Positions 5,626-31,375 of a stretch of DNA of 64,000 nucleotides are shown piece after piece. Position numbers and translations under genes: made by a program. Position 1 is the first letter of the stretch; the number at the start of each line of letters is the position of its first letter. The notes below the pieces were generated by a model. The model was not told the DNA's origin. It did not search any database and saw only the letters and a program-made list of their open reading frames with translations. Origin of the DNA: Loxodes magnus (Eukaryota > Ciliophora > Karyorelictea > Loxodida > Loxodidae); contig CAMPDV010000850.1 in assembly GCA_946699065.1 (NCBI GenBank), positions 62,001 through 126,000 on the forward strand. The letters run 5' to 3'.

Positions 5626-6420
5626 ATGTTAAGCAAGCAGTAGAAAATTGAAGCAAAGAAAGCCAGAAAGCTTGCATAAAAGCAAATAGAACATCAAATA
5701 AAAGAACTTACCGACCCTGACTCTCCTCCATCGGTAAAAGGAAAGCGCCTTGAAGGGAATACTAAGGACCAGGAATCTGATACAATCGAATCATTAAGCA
5801 ATCAAATTTGACTTATGAAGAAAAATTTCTAAAAGCAGGATGAGGTAATATTTAATCTCGCGGAAAAGATAAGGGAACTCCTAAATACAATCGAAGAACT
5901 TAATTAGGAAACAAACTGTTTAAGGAATCAACTGATACAAAGTCAAGTAGTGACTAAAGAACAACTCTGACTATAATCCTAATCTAGATCTAACAAAGTT
6001 GACAGAATGGACATTGAATAAGAATAAAAAACATAGAACTAATAGAATTAATAAGAATTGAAATAAGAATAGAATCTAATAGCTAGAATAGAAAAGATAG
6101 AGAGCCACTTATATCCAGAATTCAAGCCTTAAATCACCAAATATAGAAGATGCTGGTTCTGCCACTCAAATAACCATTTACTGAAGACTTGCCAAAACTT
6201 TAAGTAACTAAAGAGAAAGGAAGATCAAAAGACGTGAAGATAACTTACAAGACTATACGTAACTCCATAAGGAGTATTCAAGAAGAAGATTTCCAACGGA
6301 ACAAGAAGATTATCATAGTGGTTACCTCCCACTTAAAAAACTTGGTCGTGGTTTCCACCACGTTAAAAAACTGGCAGCGAGAACCTGGTTTAGATTCCAG
6401 GGAACGCAAACTTTTTTTGA
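5626..6420 (+). CDS. coiled-coil CCHC zinc-knuckle protein (ORF1/gag-like)
   Basis: 265 codons from ATG to TGA in one frame with Gln/Trp decoding. Order of parts: a basic N-terminus (MLSKQQKIEAKKARKLAQKQ), a Ser/Pro patch, a Glu/Leu/Gln-rich coiled coil, a Gln-rich linker, then one zinc knuckle of exact CX2CX4HX4C spacing (CWFCHSNNHLLKTC, near residues 187-200) and a basic tail. Such proteins in non-LTR retrotransposons (ORF1) and gag proteins bind the element RNA. Which class applies cannot be decided here, because no polymerase is attached. It reads whole. Codon use and the GC-richer 3' part differ from the MORN genes nearby. Confidence 0.75.
6317..6401 (+). other. three consecutive hairpins at the element 3' end
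   Basis: Perfect 5-bp stems: AGTGG (6317-6321) with CCACT (6329-6333); CGTGG (6347-6351) with CCACG (6358-6362); CCTGG (6384-6388) with CCAGG (6397-6401). The third loop and stem resemble a tRNA T-arm/B-box. The related insertion at 47237-48102 keeps the first and third hairpins at the same places (47958-47974 and 48026-48042). They may be the RNA feature recognised for reverse transcription, but they also lie inside the ORF. Confidence 0.55.
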
Positions 6421-6457
6421 CTTTTAGTTTACTATATATATATATAAAACAGAAAAA

Positions 6458-7223
6458 TTTTGAAGCTAAATTACCTAGAACACTAGTTATTTCTAATTTA
6501 AATTACAAAATTTACTAAATAAAATATTTTAGAGTAGAAGCAATGCTGAGTTGTTGCTGACTTACTAAATTAAGATTAAATTAAATAAAAATCACATTAT
6601 AACTCTTATTTCTTTATTTTTTACAAAAGTAAATAAGATGCCATCAATTCCTAAGCCAATAATAAGTTATTTTTCTTTAGTAACTGAAAAAAGGATTTCA
6701 ATATTATGATTATTTTACATGCTAACTTACTTTTTCGATATTTAATTACAGAATTAAAAAAATGCAAGACTAAAATATTTTTATGTATATGATAAAAAAT
6801 ACAAAATCATAACATTATTACTATAATGTAACTATTTAAAAATTAGAAGAAATCAGTAACTCATATAAATCAGATACTTTATTTTATTATGTTCCTAAAA
6901 TTCAACCATAATTCCTTTCGTCTTCCTCCATTATATCGTTGCTTTTTGTACTTTCTTGTTGGACTTCTTTAGTCTCTAATTAATTGCTTGTGCTTTATCC
7001 TACACTTTTAATAATTTTTTAGTAGATTGGTGTAAAAAATAGATATTTGAAGGTATAAATTGTTTATTTATGAGAAGTAATCTATTTTATTTAGACATGG
7101 TCATATGTTATTAATTTTTCAAATTTTTTAGAGAGAGCAATTTGAAAATTTTCTAAGTAAATAAAAATAAAATGCACATTAAAGGTAAAAGGAGTCTTTA
7201 CCTCTGCATGAAGAGTTAATTTT
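6458..7223. other. AT-rich arm sequence, no gene seen
   Basis: Nearly identical to 46205-46970 in the other arm, including non-coding-looking parts. No domain or RNA is recognised. Confidence 0.5.
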
Positions 7224-7616
7224 TCACAAGATAATTACACGAATATAAATAATATTGAAAACTGTAAGATTAAGTGCGTGACTTTAATATTTAAATTATC
7301 TCTTTCTCTGTATTCCTAACTAATTTTAGTATAAATTATTTCAGCAAATTTCTAAAGCTCTTTTAGTTGCTATAGTCTGTACAATTGGCATGCTCTTTAA
7401 AATAGGAATTAGTATCTTTATCATATTTTTTTAAAGCTTTATATTTAATATAGTTTTAAAGAGGAAACGACTAAAAGCATAAAGCTGATTATTTATTCTC
7501 ATATCATAGAACTTTAACATCTTTTTTAATTACTAAACAATATAAAATTTTAAGTTCCAGCTAACTGCAAACAGCTTGCCTATATCAGAATCAGGATAAT
7601 TCACAGCTTCTTTCAT
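7224..7616 (-). CDS. hypothetical 130-residue protein (left arm)
   Basis: ATG at 7616 reads MKEAVNYPDSDIGKLFAVSW and stays in frame to TGA at 7224-7226 (131 codons). It is basic, with internal TAA/TAG Gln and one internal TGA (ALEICWNN). No family is recognised. The right-arm copy at 45812-46204 is the same length with no visible change. Since flanking non-coding sequence is equally conserved, this gives no evidence of selection. It could be chance in a stop-poor code. Confidence 0.4.
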
Positions 7617-7751
7617 TTATAAAGCTACTTAAAGAATTAAAAAAACTAGAATGTATATTATTTAAAATTCCTTATTTTATATAAAATACCTGATATTTAC
7701 TCAAATCATATGCCAATATTCTTAAAACTATTGGCTTAACAATAGTATAAG

Positions 7752-7817
7752 GCTCAAATACCTCAGTAGGGACAGCCTTAGACTGAACATCTAAAGGTTA
7801 AATCCCAGGTTTGGGCA
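7752..7817 (+). pseudogene. decayed tRNA-Phe copy (left arm)
   Basis: This aligns along most of its length with the intact tRNA-Phe at 62412-62484, including the GAA anticodon loop region. The T-arm is shortened and the acceptor stem no longer pairs fully, so it is about 66 bases instead of 73. The inverted copy lies at 45611-45676. It is followed by a T run as in a Pol III gene. Confidence 0.75.
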
Positions 7818-8031
7818 TTTTTTAGAATAAAATAAATGAATTTTAAATAACTTAAATAGTATTTTAATATTATCAGCAATAAATACTAATATTTATTTTA
7901 GGTAGGCAGATTCAAATCCTTATCTTATATAGCTAAACAACATTATATTTATTTCATTATTATTTGGTTTTATCAAAATATTACATACTTAAAATCTCAA
8001 AATTATTAATAACTAATTTAAATAATATCAA

Positions 8032-9066
8032 ATGGCTGGCTTCAAGAAGCGTTTTTACCATCTCCTTAGGACAGAAGAGAAAACCAGAAGCACATATTCT
8101 CACCACGTCTTCTTCAACTTAACACTCTTCTTAATAAAAATAACCAGCACTATCTAATAGATTAGAAGAACTTATAAAAAATACTAACTTCTACAAATCG
8201 AAATAAAGTGAATCTCTTCCATCAAAGGACAAGTAAGAACTGAGATAAAGTTCAGAACAGAAAAGTTAACACAGCTCTCAACATCTCCATTGAAAACTAA
8301 AAAAAGAGTTCACTCAACTGAATTCATAAAAATAATAATGAAAAAATAAAAAATAAACGAAGAAGGTAAAGTACGATAATTCAATATAAATCCTATTACC
8401 TTTTATTTAGACAATACTGAAATAGAATAAATGGACTCTTTGTAGATGAAACAGCTGATTTATCAACTTATTAGAAATGTAAAAAAATCTCGAAGAGGAA
8501 TTAAATTCCCAGAAGGAAGAGATTTTTGTAATAAGTCAGGATTTGACAAATCCTGAAGATGATGATTAAGCCCATATGGTAGACCGAAGAGCTAAAGTCG
8601 GAGTTTATGAGCAAATAGCAAGTTTTAAGAATTATATTTGAGTAATGTAAGAGCAATACGAGAAAAAATGAGTAAAATTAGATTAAAGACTCAAATTAAT
8701 AGAAGAAAACTTGTAGAAGCCTTCATAAGGAACTCCAATGGAAATAGAGAAACAAGAAAAGGCATTTCTGAGAGCAAGAAAAAGATGCTATATTTGCAAC
8801 AGCATTTGACATTTATGGCGAAAATGTCCCCAATAGAAAAAAATAAGAATGAATATCTGGAGAAATGTTAACTAAAAGCAACTGAAGTAACGAGCGACGG
8901 AATTCTTCCCATCTGGAAATGGGAAATTTGAAAAAAAATTCTCAACTCAGACTATATAAAAGAGAGAAGTAAAGGAAAAAGTGCAATGAAAGGATAGAAC
9001 AGGTAGGAACGGAGATTTTATACATTTAAAACTTCAATTAACCGGAAGATGAACAGTTGTTTTGGT
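8032..9066 (+). mobile_element. coiled-coil/zinc-knuckle element, second subfamily (left arm)
   Basis: Begins ATGGCTGGCTTCAAG. The latter half reads as a coiled coil rich in Lys/Glu/Gln leading to a good CX2CX4HX4C zinc knuckle (CYICNSIWHLWRKC, near 8790) and a basic tail. A related copy sits at 13962-14835. The inverted counterpart is at 44362-45396, and the two arms differ by indels that do not keep frame. The element looks broken, with several breaks, and was already present before the arms were duplicated. Confidence 0.6.
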
Positions 9067-9144
9067 GATTTAATAATATTTAAAATAATTTTAACTTAAT
9101 TAAATAAGATTTATTATAGAGTTATAATAGTTCGTAAGCCTATC

Positions 9145-11832
9145 TCACAAAATCAAATCAATTTCTTCAGTGAGAAAATAAATCTCTTTATCTCCATTAA
9201 ATATTTTTAGTTTTTTATATTTCTCCATTAATCCCCTAAACTATCCTTAAAATTAGAAATTCTAAAAAGTTACCTTTAAAATCTTTAAACCTTTATAAAT
9301 ATGATAAGGTTAACCATTTTCATCATTCATAGGAAATGATTCACTTGAGATTTAATTTAACCGTAAATCTAACTTTTATAATTTTATTGTTTTTTATAAT
9401 ATTTTAGTGATATCATTATCATTTAAATTTAAACTACTAAGTTATAAGTTATTTAATTGACTAACTTATAATATCTCTTCTAATCAATTTCCTTATATTT
9501 CTAAGTTTCTTAGTTTTAAGCTTTGTAAATATAAGTTATTTTATTTCATCGTTTGGAAGATTTCTACATTTATTTAACTTAGTTAATCAAGCTCTATTTA
9601 CTTTAATCTCTTGCAATGTTAGAAGATAAAAACTAAAGTTTCATGTTTTATTTGATTTAAGTCAATTAAACTGATTTTCTGATAGTTATATCCATAGTTA
9701 CCTATTTATCCTAGAGAAGTATCAGTAAGTTATGCTAAACTTTTTAATTTAAGTGATTAGATGTTATTAGTATTTTATAAAAGAATCTATAAGCTTTAAT
9801 CATTAAAACTATCACAATTTTCAATACTAACTTTGATAAGTTTGTTATAACTAACGGAGAAAAACTATTAAAAGGATTCACTACTAAAATTTCCTTATAA
9901 CTATAAACTTTAAATTGCTGGATTTATCACTTTATCTAAAATTTACTAAGCAGAACCATATTCTTAAGAATTAATTACAGTTAAGTTAGGACATAAATAA
10001 GTAAATTGATTTGTCTAAGCTCCATTAATATCAAGTTATTAAATAAATGTTCCTTTTTATTCCAAATATGCTGTTATATACTTCTATTAAAGTTACTCAC
10101 TCTTAATTTTTAGTACTTTAAGTTTATTTAAATGCATACAATACTTAGTTAAATATTATCCACTAAGACCTTATCCCTTTTTATTATTTGCTATATCATT
10201 TAAATCTAATGATTCAAGATTAATTAGCATCTCAATGAAATATAAATCATCATCTTTAAAACATCCTTAGAGTGTTAATCTTTTTAAACTCTAATAAGGT
10301 AAAAAAGTAGAAAGTATAAATATCTTATTATTACTGTAAAGAGAAAAGTCTTATAATGTATCTTTTTTTCCTTGTTTAAGGTTTGTTCATTATCTTAATA
10401 AGATACTGTGATATAAAGTAGTTTATAATTAGTCTATTAAATTTTGAGATAAGTTATTTAAATAAATGACTAGCTTTATTATATCTTAATTCTATATTTA
10501 TTTTATTATTCAGTTCATCTTATTTTTTATATAATCTTCAGTTCCATCAAAGTGTTTTATCTTTATAACTTATAATTTATAATTATAGTAGAAGAAGAAG
10601 TTATTAGTCCTTTATAAAGCACAAATATCCTTTAAACTAAGGAAGCTAAATATATTATTAAGGATATTATGACTTTATTATATAAGTAATTATTAGTTTA
10701 GTCTTTCTTATTTTCTTAGTAATTCTTAATTTCACAGATCCAAACTTTAAATAATATCTTTTTATTAATTAAGAGATTACTTTTTATTTTTATCCATTTT
10801 TAAATAAAATGAGTCAAAAAATGCTCCATCGATAAAATATAAGATTGATTGCTTTCCTAAATTTTATCCTAATTATCATTTTCCTTCATATTTTGAACCA
10901 TCTTTTCATTTATATATTCCTTATCCATGTCTTTTATCTTTTAATCACTCCCCTTCGTAATTATCTCCATTTGAGTAATAAATTACTCCTTTACCTTCTT
11001 TTAAATCTTTTATTCATTATCCTTCATATTTGCTTCCATCTTTTCATTCATATATTCCTTATCCATGTTTTCAAATTTTTAATCAGCTTTCCTTTTAAGC
11101 ACCTTCATCTGAATAACACATTAAATCTTTTATCCAATCTTCTTCATAAATATCTTCATTTAAAAAATACATTTTATCTATATCATATCTATAATCTTCT
11201 TCCTATTAATTTTCGTATTTACTTCCAAGTTTTCAATCTTTTAATCAGTTTCCTTTATAAACATCTCCATTTGAATAATACATTATTCCTATTCCTTCCT
11301 TTAAATCTTATTTTCATTATCCTTCATATTTAAATTCATCTTTTCTTTCATATGTTCCTTATCCATGTCTTTTATCTTTTAGTCAATCTCCTTCATAAAT
11401 ATCTCCATTTTAATACCACATTATTCCTTTGCCTTCCTTTAAATCTTCTATTCATTATCCTTCGTATTTACTTCCATCATTTCATTCATAGATACCTTAT
11501 CCATGTTTTTTATCTTTTAGTCATTCTCCTTCATAAATATTTTCGTAGGAGTAATTCATTTTTCCTTTGCCTTCTCTTTAATCTTATACTCATTATCCTT
11601 CGTATTAACGTCCATCTTTTCATTTATAGATACCTTATCCATGTCTTTTATCTTTTAGTCAATTTCCTTCATAAATATCTCCATTTGAGTAATACATTTT
11701 TCCTTTACCTTCTCTTTAATCTTATACTCATTATCCTTCGTATTTACTTCCATTATTTCATTTATAGATACCTTATCCATGTCTTTTATCTTTTAGTCGA
11801 CTTCCTTTATAAGTTTTGGTAGAGTTTCCCAT
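9145..11832 (-). CDS. MORN-F-box-LRR protein, copy B
   Basis: 896 codons from ATG at 11832 to TGA at 9145-9147, exactly the length of its inverted twin D. About fourteen MORN repeats occupy roughly residues 9-335. The F-box-like segment starts near residue 389 (NILNNIFSFLSLKDIC), and leucine-rich repeats follow to about residue 835. The N-terminus is MGN. Divergence from D seems low and keeps frame throughout, which supports coding. The role proposed for copy A, an SCF-type ubiquitin-ligase adaptor anchored by MORN repeats, applies equally and is inference. Confidence 0.87.
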
Positions 11833-12247
11833 TTTTTATAATTTTTATAGATGTAATTGCATTAAACTAAGTTTTATCAGTAATGTTTATATTTATATAA
11901 ATATCTTAGTTTTATTTAATATTACCTGCTAATTAAAAACTAAATTAATTTTAAATTTTCTTTTAGTTTTTTAAGAATCCTACAGTCTTTCTTTTTTACT
12001 TTTAGCTAACCTTTACTTTATAGATAAATATTATTTTCTTTTTAGTTTTACATTATTAAATCTTCTTAGAACTTATTTTATCTACTAATACTAACTTATC
12101 CTTCAATTTATCATTTTTATTCTTACATAAATCTTAAAAGTAGTAATTCTATAATTATCATAGAAACCAAACAGAAGCTTATCTAGAATTTAATAAATTC
12201 TTGTGCAGCTTTTAGATTATTAGATAATTAACTTTTAATTTTTTTAT
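11833..12247. other. 5' flank of copy B, no gene seen
   Basis: AT-rich leader and upstream region, mirrored at 41180-41595 upstream of copy D. No promoter or other signal is recognised. Confidence 0.4.
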
Positions 12248-13868
12248 ATTATTTTTCTTATCAAATGAAAGTTTAAGATTCTTTCTAGATTTTCAACCAG
12301 TTTCTACTATCCATTTTTATCAAGATTAAATTATTCATCTATTTTTTATGTGGATGACTATCACTCTCTACATCTGTCAAAGTTTATTTTGTATCCAATT
12401 TTTTTGTAGACTATATTTTTATTTATTTACAGTATGTTAATTATTTTAATTTTCTTGAATTATCTTGCCTTTAAAAACTATTTAAACCAAAGTACTTTTC
12501 ATTAGATTCTTAGAAGAATTTTAATATCAATACTTCTTTATCTTGTAATAATAATTAAATTAAAATGTTCAACAGTGCCAATCTGGACACCGTTTAAAAT
12601 AAGTTGTTTTATCAGCAACACTTCTCATCATTCTTGATCTAATGAAATCATCTTCACTAAGGTCTTCTCAGTTTCTTTGATTTCTTGTTCTTATTATTTC
12701 GAAAGGTACTTCACATCATTTTCTTCTGTAAATATCTCCATGCTAGTTGCAATAGAGCCTCTAGTATTTTTCTTATTCTTTACGCCATAATTTTTTCTTG
12801 AAATTCTAAAATTTTTAGCAATTCTTGTACAAATGTCACTTACTCTTACAGTATTTGCATTTCTTCCTTACTTATTTGATTGGTTTTTGATTTATAACCT
12901 CTTTTTATTCTATCTCCATCTAATTTGTCTAATTAGTTATGTTTGTGCTAATATTCTTTTGATTAATAAACTCCAACTCTTGTTTTTATACGATATTTTC
13001 AAGCCTTGCTGTTTCTTATCTATGTTCAGTTTAAATGTTCCAATATGCTTGGAGTTCTCTTTCTTAGTTAATAATTCTAATCCCTAAGTGATCTTATCCA
13101 AGCGATAATAAGTTTCTTAGTTCTTAATTTTCCTACTTAAGCACTTTAATCTCTTCCTAGAGATTGGATATTTCAAATACTAACTGTTAAATATTGATTT
13201 CCTTTTTAATTATCTTTGATGGAAGTTCTTTTCCTGCTATTATAATAGATTCCTTTCTTTTTATTACTTTAGGAGGTGTTTATTATAGTTATTAGGTTCT
13301 TTATTAGTTTTGTAAGTGAGGAGAAGAAAACTCTTGATACTTTTTTTATGTCTGCTTTTTCTCTAGAGCTTTTTTCTCTTCTTTTGCTCAAGAAAAAGCC
13401 GGGGACAAGATTTTAAGACTCCATTTAATTTTTTTAAATTTCTTTATCTTGTATTAACTTTTTTATTTTCAATAAATAAAGTTCTTAAATTTTTACACGC
13501 TTCTAGTTATTTAAATTAAATAAGCATTTATATTAAGTTATTTACTTTATTAGAAGCATTTCAATCTTAGTTTTTTGGTAATTGTTGGACTTTCTCAATT
13601 TAATTGGTTTAGAGATAAGGGCACAGCTATTCTTCTGTTAAAACTTTATTTTGAACAAGTTACTACCATATATATGTCATTTCTAAGGTTAAATGTTATT
13701 TAACATCTAGTTCTTTTTATCTACCTGAAAGATAGTTATTAACTCAGCTTGCTTGATGAGAACTTTCTTTATTTTTATTATTATTCTGATATGGATTAAT
13801 TTTTCTGTTCTATTATTGAAATGCTTTCCTATTTTTCTTATAGTCGTTTTCTTTGGCATGTTGACTGA
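12248..13868 (-). mobile_element. nested pair of coiled-coil/zinc-knuckle elements (left arm)
   Basis: An outer element, related to the one at 17830-18570, is split by an inner element of about 900 bases. The inner one is flanked by two copies of TTCTTTATCTTGTA (12534-12547 and 13440-13453). The inner element encodes a Pro/Gln patch, a coiled coil and a zinc-knuckle-like segment. Mirror image of 39569-41175. Both look broken, each with a few breaks, and both predate the inverted duplication. Confidence 0.65.
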
Positions 13869-13961
13869 AATTCGAAAGATTTTTTTCTTCTACTCTGGCT
13901 TATCTCCTAATCTTTCTTCGCTAAGTTAATTGATATCTCTATTTTAAATTTACCTATATAA

Positions 13962-14835
13962 ATGGCTGAACTCTAAAAGTAATTTTTTACAACTTCATCA
14001 GAGAAGGAGAGAAAACCAGAAGCATCTTCTCTTTCTAAATCTCAGCTTTAACAAATCCATTCTGCTTAACACTAGCAATTGACCAGCAGGGAGGGAACTT
14101 AAAACATTAAGAAATAAAATCCTTAATAATTAAAAATTTAAAGCGGTTTTCTTCATTCAACGGATATTTAAGCGTTGAAGTGAAAAATACTAAACATAAA
14201 AAGTAACATAACTCTCTAAACCTCCACTAATAGATGAAAAAGTGACCACTCAACTGAAACTCTGAAAGTAATAATTAAGAAATAAAAAATAAATAAAGAA
14301 GGCAATATACGCTAATTCAATATATACTATGATACTTTTGATTTAGATAATATTGAAATAAAGTAAATGGATCTTAATAAATGATACAGTTAATATATTA
14401 AACTATAAAAGACTCTAAGAGGATTTAAACTTGTTGAAGGAACAAATGCTCGAATTAAGTCAAAACCTCATAAAGCTTGAAGATGATGAAGTAGTCTATA
14501 TAATAGATTGAATAGTTAAAGGATGAGACTATGAAAGAATGACATGCTAAGAGAATGATATTTGAATAATTGGAGAGTAAAACGATAAAAACTTAGTATA
14601 ATTAGATTCGAAACTCCAATAAATTTAAGAATATTTGTAGAAGTTTTTAAAAAAAATGTCCACGAAAATAGAAAAACAAGAAACAACATTTCATAGAGCA
14701 AGAAAAAGATGTTATATTTGCAATACGTAACACTTGTGACGAAAATGAAAAATCTTAGAAAGAAACAAGATTTGAGATTAATGTAAGAAATGGAGAAGTT
14801 AGGAGAAGAATTGAATATACAAAAAATTAAAATTT
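13962..14835 (+). mobile_element. coiled-coil/zinc-knuckle element, second subfamily
   Basis: Begins ATGGCTGAACTC and resembles the element at 8032-9066 along its length: the ACAGAAGAG/AGAAGGAGAG leader, a Lys/Gln-rich middle, then a decayed zinc-knuckle region near 14710. Its inverted counterpart is at 38590-39466. It looks broken, with several breaks. Confidence 0.55.
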
Positions 14836-15907
14836 TACTTTTAAATTGAAGGACAAATTATGTTAATGATTAATGATAATATGCACTTTCATCTAGCAAA
14901 TATTTTCATGCTGTTGTCTTAATAAATTCCCTTCTTCAATTTGATTAATCAACTTACATTGTCGTTTCTTGATCTACATAATATCATACAATTTCTCATA
15001 GAAGCTTCATAAGAATTTAATGCTCAAAATATTTTTGTTTATTTAAGTTATTCCTAAATTTCACTTTCCATTTCCTGAGAAAAAATTTATTTTAATTAAC
15101 TATAAAAATAATAGAATCAAATTATATATTTTTCATTCCTTTTACATTTTGATCTCAACTTTATTAAAATATTGAACTTCTTTTTCATTCATATAGAAAT
15201 GATTGTAAGTTTTTTCCCATTATATTTCCTTATACAATAAAAGTTTATAAAATAAATTATAATGAAAATTACTTATTTTAATGCTTTTGATATTTTAATT
15301 TGCATCAAGAGCAGAACTTAATCTTTTATTAGAAATTTATCTATTAAATTTTTTATTTTTATAAATAATAAAAAATCGATAACTTATTAGAAAAGTATGA
15401 TAGTTGCAATTTATGTTAAATATAATAAACTATTTTGAAAGTTTCTCTATTATTATGATTTTAGGAGTATTTTTAAGGAAATAAATTTTTGTATCATTTA
15501 TGATTTTTTATTTTAAGCAATATTTAAATTACTTAACTAAAAGTTTTATTTAATCATTCAACTTAATTTCTTAATCATTTATTTAGTTGATTAAGAGAAA
15601 CTTAATATTTTCCATTTACTGCTATTATAGTTATTAAATATATTAAAGGATATTTTTCTAACTGTTAGTGAAGTTCTAAGAAAGAAACTAATAGTTATAT
15701 TAATAAAAGATATAGGTTTAATATTGAAATTAGTAATATGAATATGATAGATAATTGATTGAAAAAATTATAATTTATATGTTTACTTTTCCCCAAAATA
15801 AAATAGAGTCTTCGCATTTAAAAGATGTAATGAATATTAACTAGAAGATAGTTACAGAATAAACAGAAAATTTGGATATTAAATTTTTATTAATTATAAT
15901 ATAAAAA
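14836..15907. other. AT-rich arm sequence, no supportable gene
   Basis: The minus strand can be read as a hydrophobic protein, but several two-base indels separate this copy from 37500-38580, so no frame is conserved. No RNA or repeat unit is recognised. Confidence 0.45.
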
Positions 15908-16225
15908 AATGAGATTATAGAACCCGTAGCACCTCAATGGTGCGCAGCTCTTTAATAAAGATTTTTAAAGTTAAAAAATTCCTTGTTGAAGTCTTCCACA
16001 ATGCTAGCATTCCCTTGTGAATTTGTTTTCTATAGGGCCACGATCGGAATACTACCCTAAGAAACCTTAATATCTGGCATCTTTCGTCATTAATGCTACT
16101 TGATTCCTCTTCGATCTTGTCTTCTCTTCTCTTGGCTGGTTCTTCACCTATGGGGTTCTTCCTGGTACCAGATTTTAAATCAGTTTCAGTTGGAGGATTG
16201 CTCATCCCTATTTATTTGTATATAA
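15908..16225 (-). mobile_element. ORF-bearing insertion, left arm only
   Basis: The right arm lacks this block near 37530. On the minus strand it carries an ORF with near-balanced codon use, ATG at 16205 (MSNPPTETDLKSGTRKNPIG), about 97 codons, acidic/basic and unrecognised. It ends at 15912-15953 with the tail AAAGAGCTGCGCACC, as in the insertion at 3988-4470. The two are therefore probably one mobile family. Base composition is clearly less AT-rich than the flanks. Confidence 0.55.
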
Positions 16226-17500
16226 TAATACTAAAAGCATTAAAATAAGCTATCTTTAAGAAGAAAAGAGATATTATATATTTAAAATTGAATCTATAAG
16301 TGTATATTAATATAGTTATTAATAGATCTTATATTATTGAGAAATCTATTAAGTTTATATAATGTTTGATTGATATTGAGAAGTTGAAAATTATTAAAAA
16401 TCTAGATTACTATAAATATATAAAAATGCTGTTTATTAAGTAAGAAGTAAAAAATAATAACTACTTTGAAAGCTTTACTTAATGTTTTGAGTAAACTAAA
16501 TAATTAAAAATATTCTAAAATTATATTAAATTAATATAAAGCAAAATATAAGAAAAATAAGGTAATTAATATTTTTAAGTTCTTTTATTTCTTAAATAAA
16601 CTAATTTTTATTAGATTTATTTTTTATTACTTGTTCTTGTATTATACTTATAACTAAGCAGTTTAATTTTAAAGTTTTGTGTTTTTATTTTAGAGATTAG
16701 ATAAATAGTGATCGTGTGAAATATCAGAATTAATAATATTATTTTATTTTTAGATAATTTCATTACATCAATTTTAATCTATCTACTGATTGACCCTATT
16801 CAAAGATGAGTCTTAAGTTTATGTGTCTTTTAGATTACCATATAAAGGTATTTTTATTTTTATTTTAGTTTAGATTTGAGTGAATATCTTTAATATTCTC
16901 ACTATCTTTGATAATATCCTATTTTTAAAAGTATCTATAGGATACTCATTATTTATCTTTGGCGGTAATACTATTTTTCTTCTTATGTATTGATTTTTCT
17001 TTCAGTAAGCTCTATAATTAATATTTTTGATGAAGAGAGTTAAGAAAAAATTTTAATGAAACACATAGGAATTTATTTTCTAGTTTTTAACTTCAGTTTT
17101 TTAATAATTTCCTTAATAAATTTATTATTAAGTTAACTTCTGTAAATTATAGAGACTCTAAATCTCTTATTTGGAGGTTTTTATACTCATGCCTGTGCTA
17201 AGCCTTTGAATTTTCAGCTTCTTTTTAGTTAATTAAAGAAGAGTCCCTATTTAAAACTAGTGAATTCTATATCTCATCCATTTTTTTACTTTTGAATACT
17301 AAGGATTAGAAGAAGCTTGGCATTAATCTTATCTACTTCATTTAACTGAGTCTTTTATTCTACTAGCTAATAATTCTTTCACTTCAAACCTGCTAAAGTC
17401 TCTTAATATTATTGGTTATTAAGTTACTCTGTATTTTCAAGTAAAATTTCTAAGGAAGCTTTTTATACAGAATTTGGTCTTCGAAAAATATTTCTGAGCT
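16226..17500 (-). other. possible coding region, unresolved
   Basis: The minus strand reads as Lys/Gln/Ile-rich protein (for example RLSTGMSIKTSKQEIQSLYN) with no TGA over a long span. It crosses the inner end of the left arm (16569) and no start is clear. No domain is recognised. The stop-poor code makes this weak evidence. Confidence 0.2.
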
Positions 17501-17511: not shown

Positions 17512-17805
17512 ATGAAATATATCCTTTCTTTTACAATCCTATTCGCTGTTTCCTTGGCTATATCTTCATATGATCAAAATAAAGCTTGATCTTGTTCTTA
17601 TTTTTGTCCTATTTTCAAATTACCTAATTGCTAGCTTTATGCCTAACCAAACTCTCCATCCACTAAGTCCGATATAGAACTTTTTTTTTCTTATTTTGCT
17701 TTTCTTGCCTAGCAAATATATGCTAATTCCATTATAGAGTCTGCTTTTATACCTATTATTATAAGCCTTTTTTTTGTTTGCTATACTATTATATTTATAC
17801 CTTAA
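17512..17805 (+). CDS. small secreted or membrane protein, hypothetical
   Basis: ATG at 17512 gives a typical signal peptide (MKYILSFTILFAVSLAISS). A short Cys-containing region follows (SCSYFCPIFKLPNC), then a hydrophobic segment near the end (AFIPIIISLFFVCYTIIFI). No in-frame TGA follows closely; the frame runs into the mobile element from about 17830. The real 3' end may therefore be lost, or a TAA may stop it. T-rich DNA can mimic membrane segments, so confidence is modest. Confidence 0.35.
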
Positions 17806-17829
17806 ATATTACACAGGAATATAGAGCAA

Positions 17830-18570
17830 TAAAGAATCGAAAACTTAGTAAAAAAAAGGTTAGAAGATGAGCTCGACTAGAAAAAGAGCAAAAATCATCT
17901 GAGGCTTCGTCATCGTATCAAGGTAAACGAATTTAAGGAAGCTAGGAAATCCTTTTAATAATAGAACGGGAAATTGAATCCGTATATGAATAATATGATA
18001 AAATGAAGAAAACTCTCAGCAAGCAGGAAGATAGAGAAAGAGAACTGATGGCGCACTATGAGCAACTTTCGTTAGAAATGACATACAGTGAGAGTTAATA
18101 GTCTTAACAGAAGAATAGTTGTTCATTAAGCCTAAACTAACTAAGTAGAAGAAGTTTCAACAGTTACTGAAGAAATTAAGAATTATAGCGTGACTTATTA
18201 ATTAAGTGATAAATAGAATTTGGAAGAACTGAAATAACAAGAATAATGGAAAAACTCGAGAATTTTATTCTTTCAAAATAGAAGCAGAAATAGAAAAAAA
18301 GAGAGGTGCTAATATTACAATGTTAACCAACATCTAATAAAGCGTCTTCTGGCTATTAAAAACTTAAAAGACATAAAAACTAAACAATAAAGGGCTTTCA
18401 AGACTTTTTATAAATAAAAATAGAATCTGCAAAAAAGGTTAAACACAGAATAAATTTGTCAGATGGAGGAGGAACGATAACCATCCATATAAAAAATGGT
18501 CGAGCTTTCCAACTTTGAAAAAAAATAGCAGGAACTGATTGAAAATCCAAAGAAAGCAAATACTTCTTAA
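17830..18570 (+). mobile_element. coiled-coil/zinc-knuckle element
   Basis: Coiled-coil-like protein (ESVYEQYDKMKKTLSKQEDR) preceded by a basic, Ser-rich N-terminal part. A decayed zinc-knuckle region lies near 18310, and a basic tail matches the outer element at 39569-41175 on both its 5' and 3' sides. It looks broken, with a few breaks. No target-site duplication was identified. Confidence 0.5.
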
Positions 18571-19250
18571 AATTTTAGCTTATATTAATTACTATTATTA
18601 TTTTTCTTCCTAATCAACTCTATTTTTTCATTTAAAATTCCATTTCCCATTTTTTTTACTCACTTTCTCTTTTGGTGTATAAGATTAATAAATAATTAAA
18701 TTAGTGTGGTACTACCATTATTAGGATCATAATGATTAATAAAAAACCAAATTTTACTTTTTATGATTCACATAGACATGATTTATTTTTCCTTCATTGA
18801 ATCATATTCTCATCTTATTTTCTTTTTTGAATAAAAATTGATTCCCTTCTTCTCTAAATTCTTGAAGTTCTTTAAGAAGGCTGAAGTTAGAAGGGATTAT
18901 ATGAATTCTTTTACTAAATGACAAATTCAAATTAAATTCTTCTAAATAAAAATTTTAGTCAGCCACAGTCATGTCTTTAGTTATTTTTCCACTCTTGCCA
19001 GATTAGAGAAATCTGAAGACAAGAGGACTCACAGACCTGGATTTAAAAGCCAATTAGTTAGCTTCTCATACAGCTAGAGAATCTCAAATAAGCAAGACTT
19101 ATACACAAAGAATATGTCTTTACTTATCCATGGTGGTATTTATTATGAGAGTGACTAGAACACATCATCCATTTTTCAATTATATTATTTAAAAAGAAAT
19201 TAAAGTAAAGGAATGCTTGAAAGCTCATTACTTTATTTTTTATATCTAGC
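18571..19250. repeat. dispersed repeat, copy 1
   Basis: The part at about 18780-19060 resembles 61380-61650 in the same orientation (shared blocks AATAAAAATTGATT, GTTAGAAGGGA, CAGTCAT). No ORF or tRNA-like fold is recognised. The remainder is AT-rich and featureless. Confidence 0.4.
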
Positions 19251-20280: not shown

Positions 20281-20293
20281 AAAATTGTATCTT

Positions 20294-21245: not shown

Positions 21246-23270
21246 TTAATTAGTCCATGCTAAATTCTTTCTCTTATTTATCTCCATCTCTATTACTTTG
21301 TTATAAGATAATAGATCTGGATTTATTGCTCCTGGCTAGGGACACAGTTTTCCTATTAACTAACATTCTTCACAACTGTTTTCTACTCTATCGGTTCCAC
21401 TATCATCCACTTTTTGCCAACATCCTAAAGCATGGTAATGATCTCCATGTGCTAATATTGGCTGCATTAATACTTACGCTTATTTTCTACTCACAACAAA
21501 AAGTTCAATCTTTATGGCATCAATCACATACAACATATTAGTATTGTCAATCTTTTGCTGCATATTATTCACAATGAGGACATTTCCTTATATCAACTCC
21601 TATTTTTCTTACAACTTCTCTTGCCTGTATTTTTTAATAATTGTTACTTTTATAATATTTTCATCTTGGCAATTTCCTGAATGTTTCAATTATAGACACA
21701 CTGAGCAAATATAAGCTTGACATTCTTTGCATTTGATATTATTAGTTAGTTTAGGTAACTAAAATAAAGCCTAACAATTCATTTATGGACAGTGTCTGCA
21801 CATGAAATATTACATTAAATCAGAAGCCTAACTTGCTCATAGATTATCAAGCTTTACTTAATGCTCTTTACTTACAATTTCTTGGATTATATCATCATTT
21901 CTACTTCCTACTCCTTTTACTATAGATGTAGAGCATTTTAAGCATATTATATCTTCATTTTTAAACTTCCCTTGATCTATTAGAGATTCTATTCAGCCTT
22001 TCAAACACTTAATGCAAAACTGATGATTACAACTAAAAGTTTTAATTTCAGCTAAATTAAATTATCCTTAGCAACATTAGCATTACTTTGTTCTTCATTA
22101 AGATGAAATATCTTCTTATACTTATTTTTCTTACTTTTGCTATTAAACTGAAATATCTATCTCTTACTTTTGTTTCTCCATCTCATTATATGATTAGTTT
22201 ATAATACTCTCGACTTATTAAATTTAATCATTTTCTCAAAAACCTTTATATAATTCTCCATTTTATAACTTTAGAATTCCATATCCTTATTTATTTCCAT
22301 CTATTCATTCCCCTTCAAAAGTATCTCCAGTTGAATAATAATAAATTCCTTTTCCATGCTATTAATTATCTTACCACTCACCAACATATTTTTCTCCAGC
22401 TCATTATCCATCTCCTCAAATATAGGTACCTTTTCCTCATTTTTTATCATTTATTCATTATCCTTCAAATTTATCTCCATTTTTAAATTTTAATATTCCA
22501 TATCCATGTTTTTTATCTTAAATCCAATCACCTTCATAAACATTTTCATTAAGAAATTTGAAAATTCCTTCACCATGCTTTAAATCACCTTTAAAGTCCC
22601 CTTCATAAATATCTCCATTTTTAAAAAATAATTTTCCTTTTCCATTTTTCTTATCTTCAACAAAATTGCCAACGTATTTATTTCCCTCATGCTATCCTTT
22701 TCCTCATATAAAAGTACCTTATCCATGTCTTTTGCCCTAATATCACTCACCTTCATAATAATTTCCTTCAAGTCATTTATATATTCCATAACCATGTCCT
22801 TATCCATCTTTTAAATCTCCTTCGTAAATATCTCCATTTACTTTATAAATAGTTCCTTTCCCATTCATTTCATCATCATATCAATCTCCTATATATTTTT
22901 CTCCTTCTCATGAACTAATCATTCAAGTAAATGTTCCTTTTCCTTATTTTTTATCATTTATTCATTATCCTTCATATGTATTTCCATTCTTAAGTGAGTG
23001 AATTCCTTACCCATCTCTTTTGTCTTCTTTTCACTCTCCTTCGTAAAAATCTCCATTTTTTCATTTAAATATCCCATTACCATGTCTTTAATCCTCTTTT
23101 CAATCTCCTTCATAAATATCTCCATTTTAATACTATAGCCTTCCTTTTCCCTATCTCTTTCCATTTGCTAGATTACCCTCATATATTTCTCCTATTTTAT
23201 AAGTAATCTTGAATTTTCACTCTCCAGTTAAAGAATCTTAATACTGAATAACCGAATCCTGTTACTACAT
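21246..23270 (-). CDS. MORN-RBR (RING-IBR-RING) protein, intact copy
   Basis: ATG at 23270 (MQQQDSVIQYQDSLTGEW) leads into about fifteen MORN repeats, then an RBR module. RING1 starts at Cys397, which is in frame with the ATG (396 codons). The IBR is near residues 491-534 (CRHCPQMNC, CKEC, CSVC, H, C). RING2 is near 556-590 (CPHC, CDWC, FCC), followed by a distal His/Cys (HYHALGC). Two short introns, 21625-21647 and 21462-21477, restore one frame of about 661 residues. RBR ligases pass ubiquitin through a RING2 cysteine; here that position, five residues before the second Cys pair, reads Tyr569. Catalysis by the usual route is therefore doubtful. No TGA closes the frame at the expected place; the end given is an in-frame TAA and is uncertain. 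Confidence 0.83.
21462..21477 (-). other. 16-base intron
   Basis: GTAAGTATTAATGCAG on the minus strand. Removing it joins the RING2 part (FCCEQKIS) to PILAHGDHYHALGC in one frame. The broken paralogues have a GTAAGT element of 17 bases at the same codon. Confidence 0.8.
21625..21647 (-). other. 23-base intron
   Basis: GTAACA...TACAG between NIIK and AREVV. It is not a multiple of three, and removing it keeps the IBR and RING2 in frame. Both paralogues carry a 21-base GTAAG...TAG element at the same codon. Confidence 0.8.
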
Positions 23271-24990: not shown

Positions 24991-25027
24991 GGTAGACCCT
25001 CTTTAATTAATTATATATACAAAAAAA

Positions 25028-25790: not shown

Positions 25791-25899
25791 GAAATTGACT
25801 GTGAAGCTTTTTTCTAAGCTGATGATAATGATAATGATAATGATAATGATAAAATTAAGTTTAGCAATCTTGGAGGAATTTCACCTCTTCCTGTTGATC

Positions 25900-26640
25900 G
25901 CCGGATTGTTCAGGTATTTAATAAAAATATTTAAAAGTTTAATCTCCTCTCTCTCACTTGATCTTATTTTCTTCAGTTTCATCTTCCATTCTGTTCTGAT
26001 TTCTTCTTGTAGATCTGCTAAGCTCATTCATATAAAATCTTCTCTAATTCTTCTCTATTACAGTTGATTTTTTCCTTTATTGTGCTTGTAGTTTTCTTTA
26101 CTTTTTTCAGTATTAAATTTTGAAACTTATGAATTTCTTGTATCTTCTTCATAAATGTTCTACCGAATTGCAGTAACATCTTTTCTGAATTATTTTAAGT
26201 TTTCTTGTGTCTTCCTTCTCAATCATCCATGAATCACTTCTTTGCTCATTTTACTCCATTTGTCGTTGGATTAGCTACTCTGATTTTGCTATATGTTCCA
26301 AAAAGCGCATAATTCTCTTTCCTAGGAAATGAGACTTGATTCTATTCTTCTACTAGGCTAAGCTGTTTCATTAGCTTCTCATTATCCTTCTTTAGCTTCT
26401 TGATATCTTTCTGGAGATTTAGTACCACTTTGATGAGCTATTCCATGCTCATCTGGCCAGAAGGATTAAATTGAGACCTCCTGGTGCAAAGCAGAGTAAG
26501 TTTGCTTTCTGACTTCTTCTGAGACGCTGGGGTGATTGCACGAGTGACTTTTTTAGATTACCCCCTCAGTAATAGCCTTGATTAAATTTTAACTCTCCAT
26601 CAAAAGAAGGAAAATTTCTTTTATCAAATACTGATAAAAA
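25900..26640 (-). mobile_element. coiled-coil/zinc-knuckle element
   Basis: Minus strand: a Thr/Ser/Lys-rich N-terminal part (TPASQKKSESKLTLLCTRRS), a strong coiled coil (KVVLNLQKDIKKLKKDNEKL), then a zinc-knuckle-like region near 26180 and a Lys/Glu-rich tail. A TATCAGTATTTGATAAAA motif lies at its 5' edge. It is most similar to the element at 30640-31375. It looks broken, with one or a few breaks. Confidence 0.55.
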
Positions 26641-27024
26641 TAATTAAATTTGATTGTATAAGTCTGTCATTTCTTAGGTACCATTTTATAAATATAAACT
26701 CTTATATATTTTTTATTTTTTTCTAATTTTTATATTTAAGCTTGCTATTTAACGTAGATTTATAAGTATTTTTTATTTAATAGCAGCAGTTATTTTTTAA
26801 ATATCTCCTGTTTACTTTACTTATTTTATTGTTTCTTTCTAAAAGACTTTAGATAGTATTTTAGGGAGAAGAACTTGAAAATATCTTATCTATCCCTAAA
26901 CTTTTCAACTAATCCATACTATTTTGCTTTATTTAACTTCTTCAGCTTTTAGGTTTTATATAGTTTATAAAGATTAAGAGAGAATAATGTAAATAATCAT
27001 TTAATTTTATTAATTCAATATAAA

Positions 27025-27650
27025 ATGCGGAAATTAGAGAGTAATAAAGCATCAAAAAGTTAATAAGAAAAGCTTGTAAATAAGTTATAAAAAAAGTTAC
27101 TGGAATCTTATCATCATTTTAAGGAAAAGATGACAATCAAATTAAATTGTACTTTTATTATCAAAATGTAAAATTAAATGACCAATGAAACTGCATATGA
27201 GTTTTATGTGAAAATTGATAAGCTATTAAAAAGCAAGATGAGTAAATCTAAGATTATAAAGAGAGATATGAGAGTTAATAACAAATATCAAATAACTTAA
27301 TTTAGAATAAATGTACTTATTTAAGCAACTTGCTAGAAATAAAATAATTACACAAGAAAACTGTATCATTAGTCTTAATAAATTTAATTTAAAAGGTTAC
27401 TATGATAAAATAATTAACTAAGGCTTATAGTGTGAATACTTAAGATCAAGATAAAATAGAAATTTTTAGAACTAAAACAATTAATTTAGGAAACACTTAA
27501 CAACTTGATTGCTCCAAGGACATAATGTATAAAATGAGATGCTAATATTGTAGTTTTTTGGCATTTTATAAAATGCTACTTCAGCTTTAAAAGAATTAAA
27601 AGATAAGATAATCAAAGAACTTTAGGTAAGCCCACAAGATAGTTTAATTT
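27025..27650 (+). mobile_element. coiled-coil/zinc-knuckle element
   Basis: ATG at 27025 gives a basic N-terminus (MRKLESNKASKSQQEKLVNK), then a Lys/Gln coiled-coil part and a CQYC-containing zinc-knuckle region near 27545. It looks broken. It lies directly upstream of the 2.2 kb repeat that carries a MORN-RBR copy. Confidence 0.45.
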
Positions 27651-29467
27651 GTATAAGTTTTACTTAAAACTCTTTATATCTTTTTTAAGTACAATTTTTC
27701 TTTAATACATTACTCAAAACTTATTTCTAAATGTAAATAACTGAGAGATTCCTTAATATAATTAAATGCCTAGATTCACGTAGAATATGGTTATCTAGAT
27801 AATTTTTTAAGATACTAGGATTATTAAGATGTAATGTGTTACTTTTTTAAAGCATAAAATCCTTTTATAAATACTCTATAATATTTAATTGCTTAGCTTT
27901 AAAATCTAATTCTTCATATTTATTATGTTTAATTTTGGTATTTTAATTATCTTAAAGTTGCTCAAGTTTGTTTTTATAATAAAATGGAGCAAGAAAAAGA
28001 GGAAGATATTACTTAGAGTTAAGTGATAGAACTTTTATAACAAGGTATATATAGGATAACTTATAATAATGGAAATGTTTATGAAGGGTAAGTAGTAAAT
28101 GGCAAAAAATAAGGAATAGGAAAATATTCTTATAAAAGTGGAGTTATTTATGAAGGAGACTTTCTTGAAAATAAGAAGCATGAAAATGGATTATATAAAT
28201 ATACAAATAGAGATTTTTATTAAGGGGAATGAAAAGAAGATTAAAAGTATGGATAAGGAATTTTATAATATATAAATGGAGATTGTTATGAAGGCCAATG
28301 AACAAAGGTAAAAAATAAGGAAAAGGAAGTTAAACTTGAGTTACCAATAAATATGAAGGTGAAAAATATGTAGGAGATTGATATGAAAACAAAAGACATG
28401 GCAAAGGTATTTATTATTATCCAAATGGAAATATTTATGAAGGAGACTTCAAAGAAAATAAAAAGGAAGGAAAAGGAGTTTTTAAATATATAGAAGGAGA
28501 TAATTACGAAGGAGAGTAAAAGGAGGAAAAGTATCTGGTAAAGGAATTTTAAAATATAAAAATGGAAATATTTACGAAGGTGATTGATTTAATGATAAAA
28601 AGCAAGGATAAGGAGTTTTAACATTAAAAAATGGAGATAAATATGAAGGATAGTGATTAATTGATAAAAAATATGGAAAAGGTATTTACACATGAGGCGA
28701 AGGATAATGATAGGGTGAAAAATACGTAGGAGAATGAAAAGAAAATGAATGTCATGGAAAAGGAATTTATTATTATTCAGCAGGAAAAATTTTTGAAGGT
28801 GAATGAATTGATGGAAAAAAGCAAGGATATGGAGTGTTAAAATTATAAAATGGAGAAATTTATGAAGGTTAGTGAAAAAATGACTAAATATAGTAAGTAA
28901 ATATTGTTATAAACTAATAATAGAACTTAGAATGAAAATAATAATAAACATAAGATATTTAGTCAAATTTACAAAAATTTGAACAATAAAATAATGAAAA
29001 TATTTAGACTAATTTTGAAGAGAACCATATTATTTGCTAATCATGCTAAAGATATTATACTGCATCTTATATAAAAATATTAGGTTGTAATCATCAATTT
29101 TGCATATTTTGCTTAAAAAAATGAATAGAAACATAAATAATTTAAGGAAAATTTAAAAGGGAAGATATTGTGTGTGCTTAATGTTCTGATCTTTTAGAGA
29201 TAGGAATCGGAGTTATAGATCACAACATTATTAAAGGTTTAATTAATAAAGAGAATTGAGAAAAGCTAGCAAACTTAAGATAAAATTTATAAAATGGATT
29301 AATGTATTCTTTTATATAGATGTTGCTTTTAAATGGGATGCCAAGGTAAATTTAAACTACCTGCGATAACAAATGTTATTATTTGTGACAGATGTTAGTA
29401 AAAAGTTTGTTCGACGTGTCTCCAATAGCCACATTCTGGAAATTGCTAAGAAATAAATGTTATTAAG

Positions 29468-29488
29468 GTAAGTGACATTTAAAAATAG
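29468..29488 (+). other. 21-base intron
   Basis: GTAAGTGAC...AAATAG between the IBR and RING2 of MORN-RBR copy 1. The length is a multiple of three, so frame does not prove it. Its position matches the 23-base intron of the intact gene, and the 5' site is a perfect GTAAGT. Confidence 0.65.
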
Positions 29489-29635
29489 GCAAGAGAAGTT
29501 GTAAGAGAAATAGGAATGGATATTAGAAAATGTCCCTATTGTGGATAGTATACTACAAAAGATTCAAAATATTTATATATTACATGTTCTGGATGTAAAA
29601 GAGACTGAGCTTTTTGTTGTGAGGTCAAATTAAGA

Positions 29636-29652
29636 GTAAGTAATAAATATAG
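29636..29652 (+). other. 17-base intron
   Basis: GTAAGTAATAAATATAG. Removing it joins CCEVKLR to PILEHGNHYHAIGC and carries the frame to TGA at 29851, strong evidence for splicing. In copy 2 the same site (60941-60957) ends in AA instead of AG. Confidence 0.85.
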
Positions 29653-29853
29653 CCTATATTAGAACACGGAAATCATTACCATGCAATAGGTTGTTGATGC
29701 TATGTTAAAAATGATGGCGTAGATTGAATGAAAAAAGATTGCGAAGAATGCATAAAATTTGGGAATCTGTGTCCATAACCAGGTAAAATAAATCCATATT
29801 TATTGTCATTCAGCAATCTATTAGAGGAAGAGATAAAAAGGCGAGAAAAATGA

Positions 29854-30639
29854 TTTGAAGCGTTTGACTAAAACTTTAACTTAAAATTAGCAATTATTAA
29901 GTTAATCTCATTCTTAAGTAAAATCTTTAAATAAAGAAATTTTAAAAGCCAAATTAATTATTACTTATTATATTTTTATTCCTTTAACGCTAAAAATTCA
30001 AAATTACATGGCTTTTACTATCCTTCTACTTTTTTTATATTAAAAATTCTGCGTCAAATTTTTATATAAATCTTGTTTACTTAAATAAAATTCTAAAATC
30101 ATTTTTTTTTATTTTTCATGTTAAAGAAGAAAACTTAAAATTAAATAGAAACAATTTTTGCTATTAATTTTAGAAATATATTTTTTCCAGTTTTTTTATT
30201 GAATTTTTACTAGTAAAAAGATTATTTATTTTTATATATTTTATCATTAATCTTCCTTTATATATATACAATTTTACATATAAGTTTATATATTTTTTCT
30301 TATGGTAATTTTAATCATTTACTAATATATATTAACATATGGCTTTGATTATGTAAATTTAATATTTTTATGTAAATCAAATTCTGTTTTTATGACTTTT
30401 TAATATTATCTGACTTATTCCTATTCTAATTTAGTCTTCTACTTAAATTTCACTTTATCATGCAAGTTTTAGTTTATATCGTCTTACCTATTTCATGATA
30501 ACTTAAAGATTTAGATGTGGTTAAATTAAAAATTTTTATGTACAAGATGAATATCTCATATTTTTTAATTTGTGTTATAAAGTTTTGTTATAAAACTAAA
30601 AAAATTTGAATTACTTGATCTTTTTCCTGGTATTTCAAC
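29854..30639. other. AT-rich intergenic, nothing recognised
   Basis: Long T and A runs with no protein-like frame, RNA or repeat that I can support. Confidence 0.6.
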
Positions 30640-31375
30640 ATGTTTCTAAGATACCGATCTCCTCAGTGATTGGAAATACCATGTTCACTTCAATTTGATC
30701 TGGTGTTCAGGATCAGGATAATATCTTTATTTCACATCTTTCCTTGAAAGGCACAGTATACTTTCTAAATTATTTAGTCTTCTTTCTTTTTATTAAGTAT
30801 TTCAATTGCCAATTTGATTTTTCCTTTTTATGAAATTGCTAACATTGTCGATAAAAATGATTTCACTTCTACAACAGTATCATTTCTTCACAATTATCTT
30901 AGTTAATATTTCCGAATGTATTTTAACATTATATTTTTATAGTATTAGTATATCTTTTCTTCTCATTGTGCATTTTAAAGTTTCAGTTTATGTTTAAGCT
31001 TACTTTGCTCAATTTTTTATATTTGTTTCTTAATTCTGTCTGCTTCTATTATTTGGTCTAAGTTTGACTGTTCTAGCTTGAGATATGTTTCTAAAGGCTT
31101 TCATTTCTCTTTCTTAGGCCTTAAGTCTTAACTCTTTGTTCTCTGCGATTTCAAGTTTTCATAAGCATTTTATTATCTTTTTTAAATTTTTAACCTCTTC
31201 CTGGAGGTCCAACACCACTTTAATCGGCTAATCTTATTTTATTTGCTGCTCATGACGAAATTAGAAACTTCTGAGTGCAATATATCTTTAATCTAATTAA
31301 TTGGTATTTTCTTCAAAGGTAGGAGTCTGAATCTTGTGTGCAACTTTCTTTCCAACTTTTCCTTTGTCCTAAAGA
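30640..31375 (-). mobile_element. coiled-coil/zinc-knuckle element
   Basis: Minus strand: a coiled coil (IKVVLDLQEEVKNLKK) very like that at 25900-26640, a Lys/Arg-rich middle, then a zinc-knuckle region near 30860 with a basic tail. It looks broken, with one or a few breaks. Confidence 0.5.

Follow-up and report, generated by a model that had tools for sequence, protein, structure and literature searches.

Compact non-autonomous retroelements of the ciliate Loxodes magnus that encode only an ORF1-like zinc-knuckle protein and probably depend on a resident LINE

What kind of sequence is dispersed through a 64,000-nt stretch of the Loxodes magnus genome (assembly GCA_946699065.1, contig CAMPDV010000850.1, positions 62,001 to 126,000; hereafter the window) as loci that encode a coiled coil and a CCHC zinc knuckle? 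A preliminary description of this DNA had proposed single-ORF (open reading frame) elements with an ORF1-like protein, possible partners of a long interspersed nuclear element (LINE). We conclude, at a probability of roughly 0.8, that they are very compact non-autonomous retroelements without long terminal repeats (non-LTR), whose sole product is an ORF1-like RNA-binding protein and which are mobilised by a resident LINE. The single-ORF, non-autonomous, polymerase-less part of this reading is well supported, since we found exact target-site duplications (TSDs) checked against a control, an empty site, defined ends and many near-identical copies.

The argument is carried by element 1 (e1), which is about 830 nt long and almost wholly coding. 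Whole-assembly searches covered 705,730,643 bases in 7,843 contigs, and translation throughout took TAA and TAG as glutamine and TGA as tryptophan or stop. A search with the e1 protein, in which 144 of 11019 first-look candidates were scored, returned at least 85 near-full-length copies including the window's own, at 86-90% reported identity; the window's copy itself scores 90% because in-frame TAA, TAG and TGA count as mismatches. At the DNA level it shows 1-8 differences in 792 nt from the other 24 copies fetched. The 25 loci, taken with 1.5 kb flanks, represent 22 distinct insertions, as three share a site with another: L025-L027 (L-numbers label the genomic loci fetched in the analysis) have common flanks and form one tandem array, and L035 and L036 lie at one site. 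Exact TSDs of 13-17 nt bound both ends of all 22 distinct insertions, although some borders between tail and TSD are ambiguous, both being AT. Among 462 mismatched pairings of left and right flanks, the longest repeat was 12 nt and none reached 13. Moreover, the window contains a long inverted repeat, in whose mirrored arm the e1 site is empty and the 14-nt repeat stands only once; a relative, e4, whose duplication has decayed, has its empty site in the first arm. With 22 of 22 insertions and an empty site at hand, e1 shows the variable-length TSDs and the simple-repeat 3' tail of a non-LTR element inserted by target-primed reverse transcription.

Independent e1 copies resemble one another within a stretch of about 830 nt that opens shortly before the ATG and closes with the AT tail, and not beyond it. 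Their layout is TSD, an A-run of 7-14 followed by G, ATG, ORF, TGA, CTTTTAGTTTACT, an AT-rich tail of 2-14 nt, and TSD; 20 of the 22 insertions start with the A-run and G (L024 has AG only, L028 an interrupted run), and all those examined end in TTTTAGTTTACT and AT repeats soon after the stop. Given this start and this end, we regard e1 as a complete element and not as a piece of something longer. A longer parent, a possibility raised in the preliminary description, did not materialise for e1 and is rejected: between the TSDs only 2-18 nt precede the ATG and about 18-30 nt follow the stop, so that the defined ends leave almost no non-coding sequence. The two ends differ (an A-run against TTTAGTTTACT(AT)n), hence e1 has no terminal repeats. 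This bears on the idea of gag-only elements of LTR type, which is suggested by the resemblance of knuckle and coiled coil to the organisation of a gag nucleocapsid. LTR elements usually make TSDs of 4-6 nt, against the 13-17 nt found here, and we regard this explanation as very improbable.

The e1 protein has a basic N-terminus, a coiled coil and one CX2CX4HX4C knuckle. AlphaFold2 predicts a long helix over residues 47-105 and shorter helices, with block means of 80-94 pLDDT for residues 51-110 in a model whose overall pTM is only 0.26; residues 222-264 fall below pLDDT 50 and are predicted to be disordered. No reverse transcriptase (RT) domain or other Pfam family reached its cut-off in e1, and none did in the proteins of 1b, e2, e3, L059e and e2b (knuckle frame), the relatives described below. 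In the window copy, 24 nt separate the stop from the end of the element. The earlier statement that none of the loci carries a polymerase holds, and e1, with neither RT nor endonuclease (EN), is not an autonomous LINE. Membership of a known gag family, the other objection foreseen earlier, also found no backing, as neither zf-CCHC nor known gag families matched the element proteins at cut-off. The best sub-threshold Pfam match was DDE_Tnp_2 to e2, at 16.5 bits against a cut-off of 20.2. NCBIfam, a prokaryote library, gave no family at cut-off in the element proteins, and a PDB profile search with the element protein returned nothing below E 0.08.

As the preliminary description had suggested, there are several subfamilies. 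The exact 3' end CTTTTAGTTTACTATATATATAT (23 nt) occurs at 273 places genome-wide and nowhere in the reversed control. Among the first 100 of these, 63 are 1b by a longer pattern and 31 are e1 by position; the remaining six, read singly (L074, L089-L093), are e1 or 1b. The sister subfamily 1b has 182 exact 3' ends by the longer pattern. Of the five copies read, each for about 700 nt, two (L064 and L066) stay in the frame of the knuckle, with their last in-frame TGA 44 nt before the tail, and L065 and L068 have frame changes. Another element, L059e, lies in L059; by eye, it is flanked on either side by a 13-nt repeat. The e1, 1b and L059e proteins have one common layout at 31-42% identity and show the codon pattern expected of purifying selection: nonsynonymous divergence (dN) stays well below synonymous divergence (dS) for e1 against 1b (dS 1.6, dN 0.54 over 186 codons) and for 1b against L059e (dS 1.96, dN 0.55), and for e1 against L059e dN is 0.71 with synonymous sites saturated. 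Read out of frame, the e1/1b pair loses the dS excess (0.58/0.68 and 0.55/0.70), and in the other two pairs the excess is reduced, one of the two shifted frames keeping dS>dN (1.32/0.79, 0.89/0.64). Near the 3' end, by eye, DNA is better kept than protein and the subfamilies drift in frame. Altogether, we see in e1 and 1b non-autonomous non-LTR elements that encode ORF1 only and have amplified recently; e1 is complete in itself.

If LINE enzymes had retrocopied a short host gene, the resulting processed pseudogenes would also have an mRNA-like short leader and trailer and TSDs at their insertions. Their tails, however, would be poly(A), whereas e1 and 1b end in (AT)n, e4 in a TTAA-like and L059e in a T/A-rich tail. 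Furthermore, subfamilies that have diverged to 31-42% amino-acid identity keep layout, constraint and 3' structure. We consider a retrocopy origin improbable.

The 3' structure in question consists, in e1, of the hairpins CGTGG..CCACG and GCG..CCTGG..CCAGG..CGC, followed by the TTTAGTTTA box. In 10 distinct sequences from four subfamilies its 13 pairs are formed in 96.2% of cells, and 4 of the 13 are changed on both sides, compared with 0-1 in slid controls and with 2 of 500 shuffles that reach 4; the structure was drawn from these same 10 sequences and is carried by four lineages only. Folded singly, 1b does better than its shuffles (z -3.35) and L059e not clearly so (z -1.74). A tRNA-like origin of the hairpins received no support from ARAGORN or Rfam, which gave no match (gathering threshold for Rfam) in any window element and placed the only tRNAs at 62.4-62.6 kb.

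Which LINE might serve these elements? LINEs with EN and RT occur as near-identical copies in the genome. LINE A (L047) encodes both enzymes, starts at L047:143-144 and has a (TTTA)n tail, a 3' hairpin and the knuckle CCLCKVKGHTDQQC upstream of ORF2; the L050 LINE likewise carries a CX2CX4HX4C knuckle upstream of ORF2. Zinc-knuckle families match at both places weakly and below threshold; by eye, LINE A ORF1 also has an RRM-like stretch, but Pfam detects no such domain there. LINE B has at least 40 near-identical copies and starts, as e1 does, with an A-run and ATG; its ORF1 in the window contains no CX2CX4HX4C match. LINE A and B may be the rnd-1_family-27 and -19 LINEs named in PMC11441545. 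Yet another LINE family, with about 30% identity to LINE B ORF2, was noticed at L046 (rc 361-2085), and L051 (G000:C5131) is a head-to-tail array of LINE A fragments with a period of about 2532 nt, possibly tandem or an assembly effect.

The elements e1 and 1b and their older relatives form two groups with different LINE ties. On one side, e1, 1b, e4 and L059e have a TTTAGTT[AT]A (TTTAGTTWA) box, which also precedes the AT-rich tail of 10 of 12 LINE B copies; as background, 39 of 393,524 sites carry it, or about 0.0015 per 15-nt span. Given T-rich ends and the several LINEs tried, we take the box as a hint only of a tie to LINE B, which is nevertheless our best, if tentative, guess for the partner of group I. 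On the other side, the first about 95 nt of the group II loci e2 and e2b resemble the LINE A 5' end including the ORF1 start (72-78% identity, in e2 from the first base), a feature absent from the preliminary description. LINE A is our best guess as partner of group II. The ATG common to e2 and LINE A is out of frame with the e2 knuckle. As a separate observation, one arm of the inverted repeat alone carries a 0.47-kb insertion (3981-4451), the last about 70 nt of which are LINE A 3' sequence and a (TTTA)n tail. It may be a SINE-like partner of LINE A (SINE, short interspersed nuclear element), and since it shares the LINE A 3' end, LINE-tailed short elements do exist in this genome.

Several results weigh against mobilisation by these LINEs. 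The common box is only 9 nt long and sits in AT-rich sequence; 2 of the 12 LINE B copies lack it, the window's among them, and the LINE B 3' hairpin also differs. No LINE was found to carry the (AT)n tail or the hairpins of e1: in 43 sources, a covariance model of the element 3' end (R1) failed to match the 3' end of any LINE, and the 100 of 273 exact 3' ends that were examined included no LINE, all belonging to elements. Single-sequence folds of e1 (z -1.24) and e4 (z -0.78) are no better than shuffles. Six-frame BLAST of e1 against ORF1 of LINE A or B gave no significant similarity, and profile comparison by hhalign reached E 0.24 and 0.1. Finally, a LINE-B-like fragment adjoins e1 in 2 of 25 loci (L032, L045), in L032 on both sides, the upstream one being weak (E 0.013); we read both as probable insertions of e1 into old LINEs. 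The LINE partnership suggested earlier is thus a probable reading; the one 3' feature found in common with a LINE is the box in 10 of 12 LINE B copies, to which the structured 3' end (43 sources) and the exact 3' ends (100 of 273) added none.

These points lead to the question of origin. The elements could be deletion derivatives of an undetected LINE with a coiled-coil/CCHC ORF1, the strict equivalent of HAL1, which in mechanism is a sub-case of our explanation and in origin its rival. The 5' end of about 95 nt that e2 and e2b have in common with LINE A, ORF1 start included, argues for such a descent, as do the knuckles that LINE A and the L050 LINE have before ORF2. Against it, independent copies among the 25 e1 loci share nothing beyond the ends within their 1.5 kb flanks, and ORF1 of LINE A and B lacks significant similarity to e1. 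With 144 of 11019 first-look candidates scored in the genome search, a rare parent may still exist. We regard this origin as a real alternative, albeit an unlikely one.

HAL1 has a poly(A) tail and is, to our knowledge, the one known LINE-dependent element encoding only ORF1. This mammalian element (half-L1) is non-autonomous, encodes only an ORF1-type protein and derives from L1 (PMC5753468). Like HAL1, e1 encodes an ORF1-like protein only, lacks RT and ends shortly after its stop. Unlike HAL1, it has no parent LINE with an e1-type ORF1 among those compared (LINE A and B), and it is ~830 nt long and almost wholly coding, with an (AT)n tail, a CCHC knuckle and no Pfam domain. The elements would work like HAL1 yet are not HAL1, as neither an L1 ancestry nor a poly(A) tail is seen in them. 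LINE-tailed SINEs share the 3' end of their LINE. e1 resembles them in being short, TSD-flanked and simple-repeat-tailed, and presumably mobilised in trans, but it encodes a conserved protein and the 3' end it shares with a LINE is the 9-nt box only. It also differs from SINEs derived from tRNA, 5S or 7SL RNA, as ARAGORN and Rfam detect no known Pol III RNA head in the window elements. Some LINE ORF1 proteins carry a CCHC knuckle. The element knuckle has the 2-4-4 spacing of those in LINE A and L050, but has W, N, F or Y before the histidine where these have G, and is accompanied by a coiled coil. With the L. magnus LINEs rnd-1_family-27 and -19 (PMC11441545) the elements have the non-LTR type and the host in common. 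In the literature searched we found no description of such elements in ciliates, and the words non-autonomous, SINE, zinc and coiled are absent from the main text of PMC11441545.

Taken together, we favour a non-autonomous element mobilised in trans. It would be transcribed from its extreme 5' end, and its protein would be made and package its own RNA, the coiled coil serving self-association. The LINE-encoded EN/RT would then engage the structured 3' end and the AT-rich repeat tail, nick the target, copy the RNA by target-primed reverse transcription and leave the 13-17 nt duplications. RNA binding, self-association, transcription and LINE use in trans are what we infer from the sequences. 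The elements might instead be helpers that supply in trans a knuckle protein needed by LINE B. The lack of a CX2CX4HX4C match in the window's LINE B ORF1 and the many near-identical copies of both families would fit, whereas LINE B has a long ORF1 of its own; we think this role improbable. A wider proposal is that this karyorelict ciliate divides ORF1 and ORF2 functions between units that move separately: swarms of ORF1-only elements, nearly all coding and with an RT recognition structure inside the 3' end of the coding sequence, would exist alongside LINEs and supply or steal ribonucleoprotein function in trans. This appears to us distinctly unlikely.

How the loci of the window are read depends on the genetic code, as the usual ciliate code applied to the L. 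magnus genome would make sense codons resemble breaks. Many RT frames across the genome carry ~8 TGA, 4 TAG and 8 TAA each, and therefore TAA/TAG are read as glutamine and TGA as tryptophan; the ~8 in-frame TGA per RT frame led us to reject a table 6 reading. The code of L. magnus is given in PMC11441545 as NCBI table 27, in which UGA is the sole stop and means tryptophan when far enough from the poly(A) tail, and it is on this statement that the identity of the residue rests. In an alignment of LINE A with L050, 16 of the 26 aligned TGA cells face W, a count that includes TGA itself as W, so the comparison speaks for conserved sense use and not for residue identity; relative to LINE B, TGA positions of LINE A mostly face F, Y, P, I and others.

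With TGA read as W, the window has five exact CX2CX4HX4C sites, on both strands as claimed earlier, with 44642 (-) mirroring 8786 (+). None appeared in any of 10 shuffles of a first-order Markov control (ciliate table 6 reading). With looser spacing, a second-order control gave 0-1 four-ligand sites per shuffle (10 shuffles) against 7 observed, two of which, 21707 (-) and 29408 (+), are zinc sites of another kind. These two, CX2CX4HX3C inside Cys-rich frames, appear to be part of another zinc domain, presumably RING/IBR-like, and were left out of the family. Protein and DNA profiles identify eight distinct family loci (e1, e2, xp, e3, e2b, x18, x27 and e4; Table 1), fewer than the eleven or more counted in the preliminary description with mirrored copies taken once; mirror copies of e2, e2b, e3 and xp raise the total to 12. 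Reversed-window controls for three of these searches, the one with R1 not among them, gave nothing better than E 0.11. A match at 59002-59099 was left out of the count, being the border of a large duplicated stretch (the 27.7-29 kb region). Seven loci lie within 5626-31375, to which the family had been confined, and e4 lies outside at 47.2-48.1 kb; the matches themselves span 5617-6440 for e1 and 47240-48083 for e4. The knuckle ascribed to all loci is present in e1, e2 and e3, but x18, x27 and e2b retain only remnants. That most loci are broken and at least one whole also needs qualifying: e1 is whole, and frame changes occur in e4 as well as in the mirrored e2, e2b and e3, but the TGA codons that fall within the knuckles of e2 and e3, in both arms, are consistent with sense (W) rather than with an interruption. 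From the order of the matches, xp is apparently split by e3, which lies inside it.

Table 1. Coordinates of the elements, their parts and LINE B in the window.
Feature	Positions	Strand	Basis or remark
e1, left TSD, 14 nt	5602-5615	+	Identical to 6445-6458 and to the mirrored arm's empty site
e1, 5' end, A-rich leader directly before ATG	5616-5625	+	Between-copy homology begins about here
e1, ORF, 264 codons, three internal TGA=W	5626-6417	+	Near-full-length genomic copies; dN<dS against subfamilies
e1, long helix, residues 47-105, read as coiled coil	5764-5940	+	AlphaFold2 model
e1, CX2CX4HX4C zinc knuckle CWFCHSNNHLLKTC	6151-6192	+	Motif scan
e1, structured 3' region overlapping ORF end	6317-6431	+	Covarying pairs; placed by model R1, itself built from it
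e1, TGA taken as true stop, 24 nt before element 3' end	6418-6420	+	Genomic matches stop at residue 264
e1, (AT)n tail	6434-6444	+	Read directly before the right TSD
e1, right TSD	6445-6458	+	Exact repeat of 5602-5615
e2, group II, knuckle at 8786	8028-9105	+	Mirror copy 44323-45400 on -
xp, group I fossil, 13926-13465 with 3' part 12545-12266	12266-13926	-	Mirror copy about 39503-41166 on +
e3, knuckle at 12859 (CKYCKSKWHLYKNC)	12680-13411	-	Match to group I profile built without e3, E 1e-5
e2b, group II, decayed knuckle at 14710	13959-14824	+	Mirror 38603-39469 on -
x18, group I fossil, decayed knuckle, 3' hairpin region at 18473-18582	17795-18599	+	Profile matches
x27, group I fossil	27146-27795	+	Independent match 27220-27639
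e4, group I, frameshifted	47232-48090	+	Absent from other arm, empty site about 5354-5363
LINE B, A-run and ATG 5' end, long ORF1 from 50871, ORF2 with EN and RT	50855-57485	+	Candidate partner

Other features of the window were noted in passing. The long imperfect inverted repeat spans 2083-16569 and 37166-50854, with aligned blocks 92-99.6% alike; its arms differ by mobile-element insertions, so that empty and filled sites are readily at hand. Tandem arrays with units of 69/138 nt, some with long open frames, lie at about 2930-3747, 10781-11825, 22425-23197 and 35897-37025, and a second set of tandem arrays at 28164-28963, 41581-42594, 49168-50019 and 59468-60166. Two distant direct duplications, with pieces 93-100% alike, pair 1-526 with 62864-63387 and 27804-29155 with 59109-60460, the latter extending back to the 3' part of x27. 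A tRNA-Phe gene lies at 62412-62484 (+) and a second tRNA-like gene at 62537-62603 (-).

A large fraction of L. magnus repeats is unclassified, and the family probably puts a name to part of it. Moreover, if our reading is true, a deep-branching ciliate with hundreds of recent copies, young LINEs and very short element ends would make it possible to test whether an ORF1 protein by itself gives its own RNA preference in reverse transcription.

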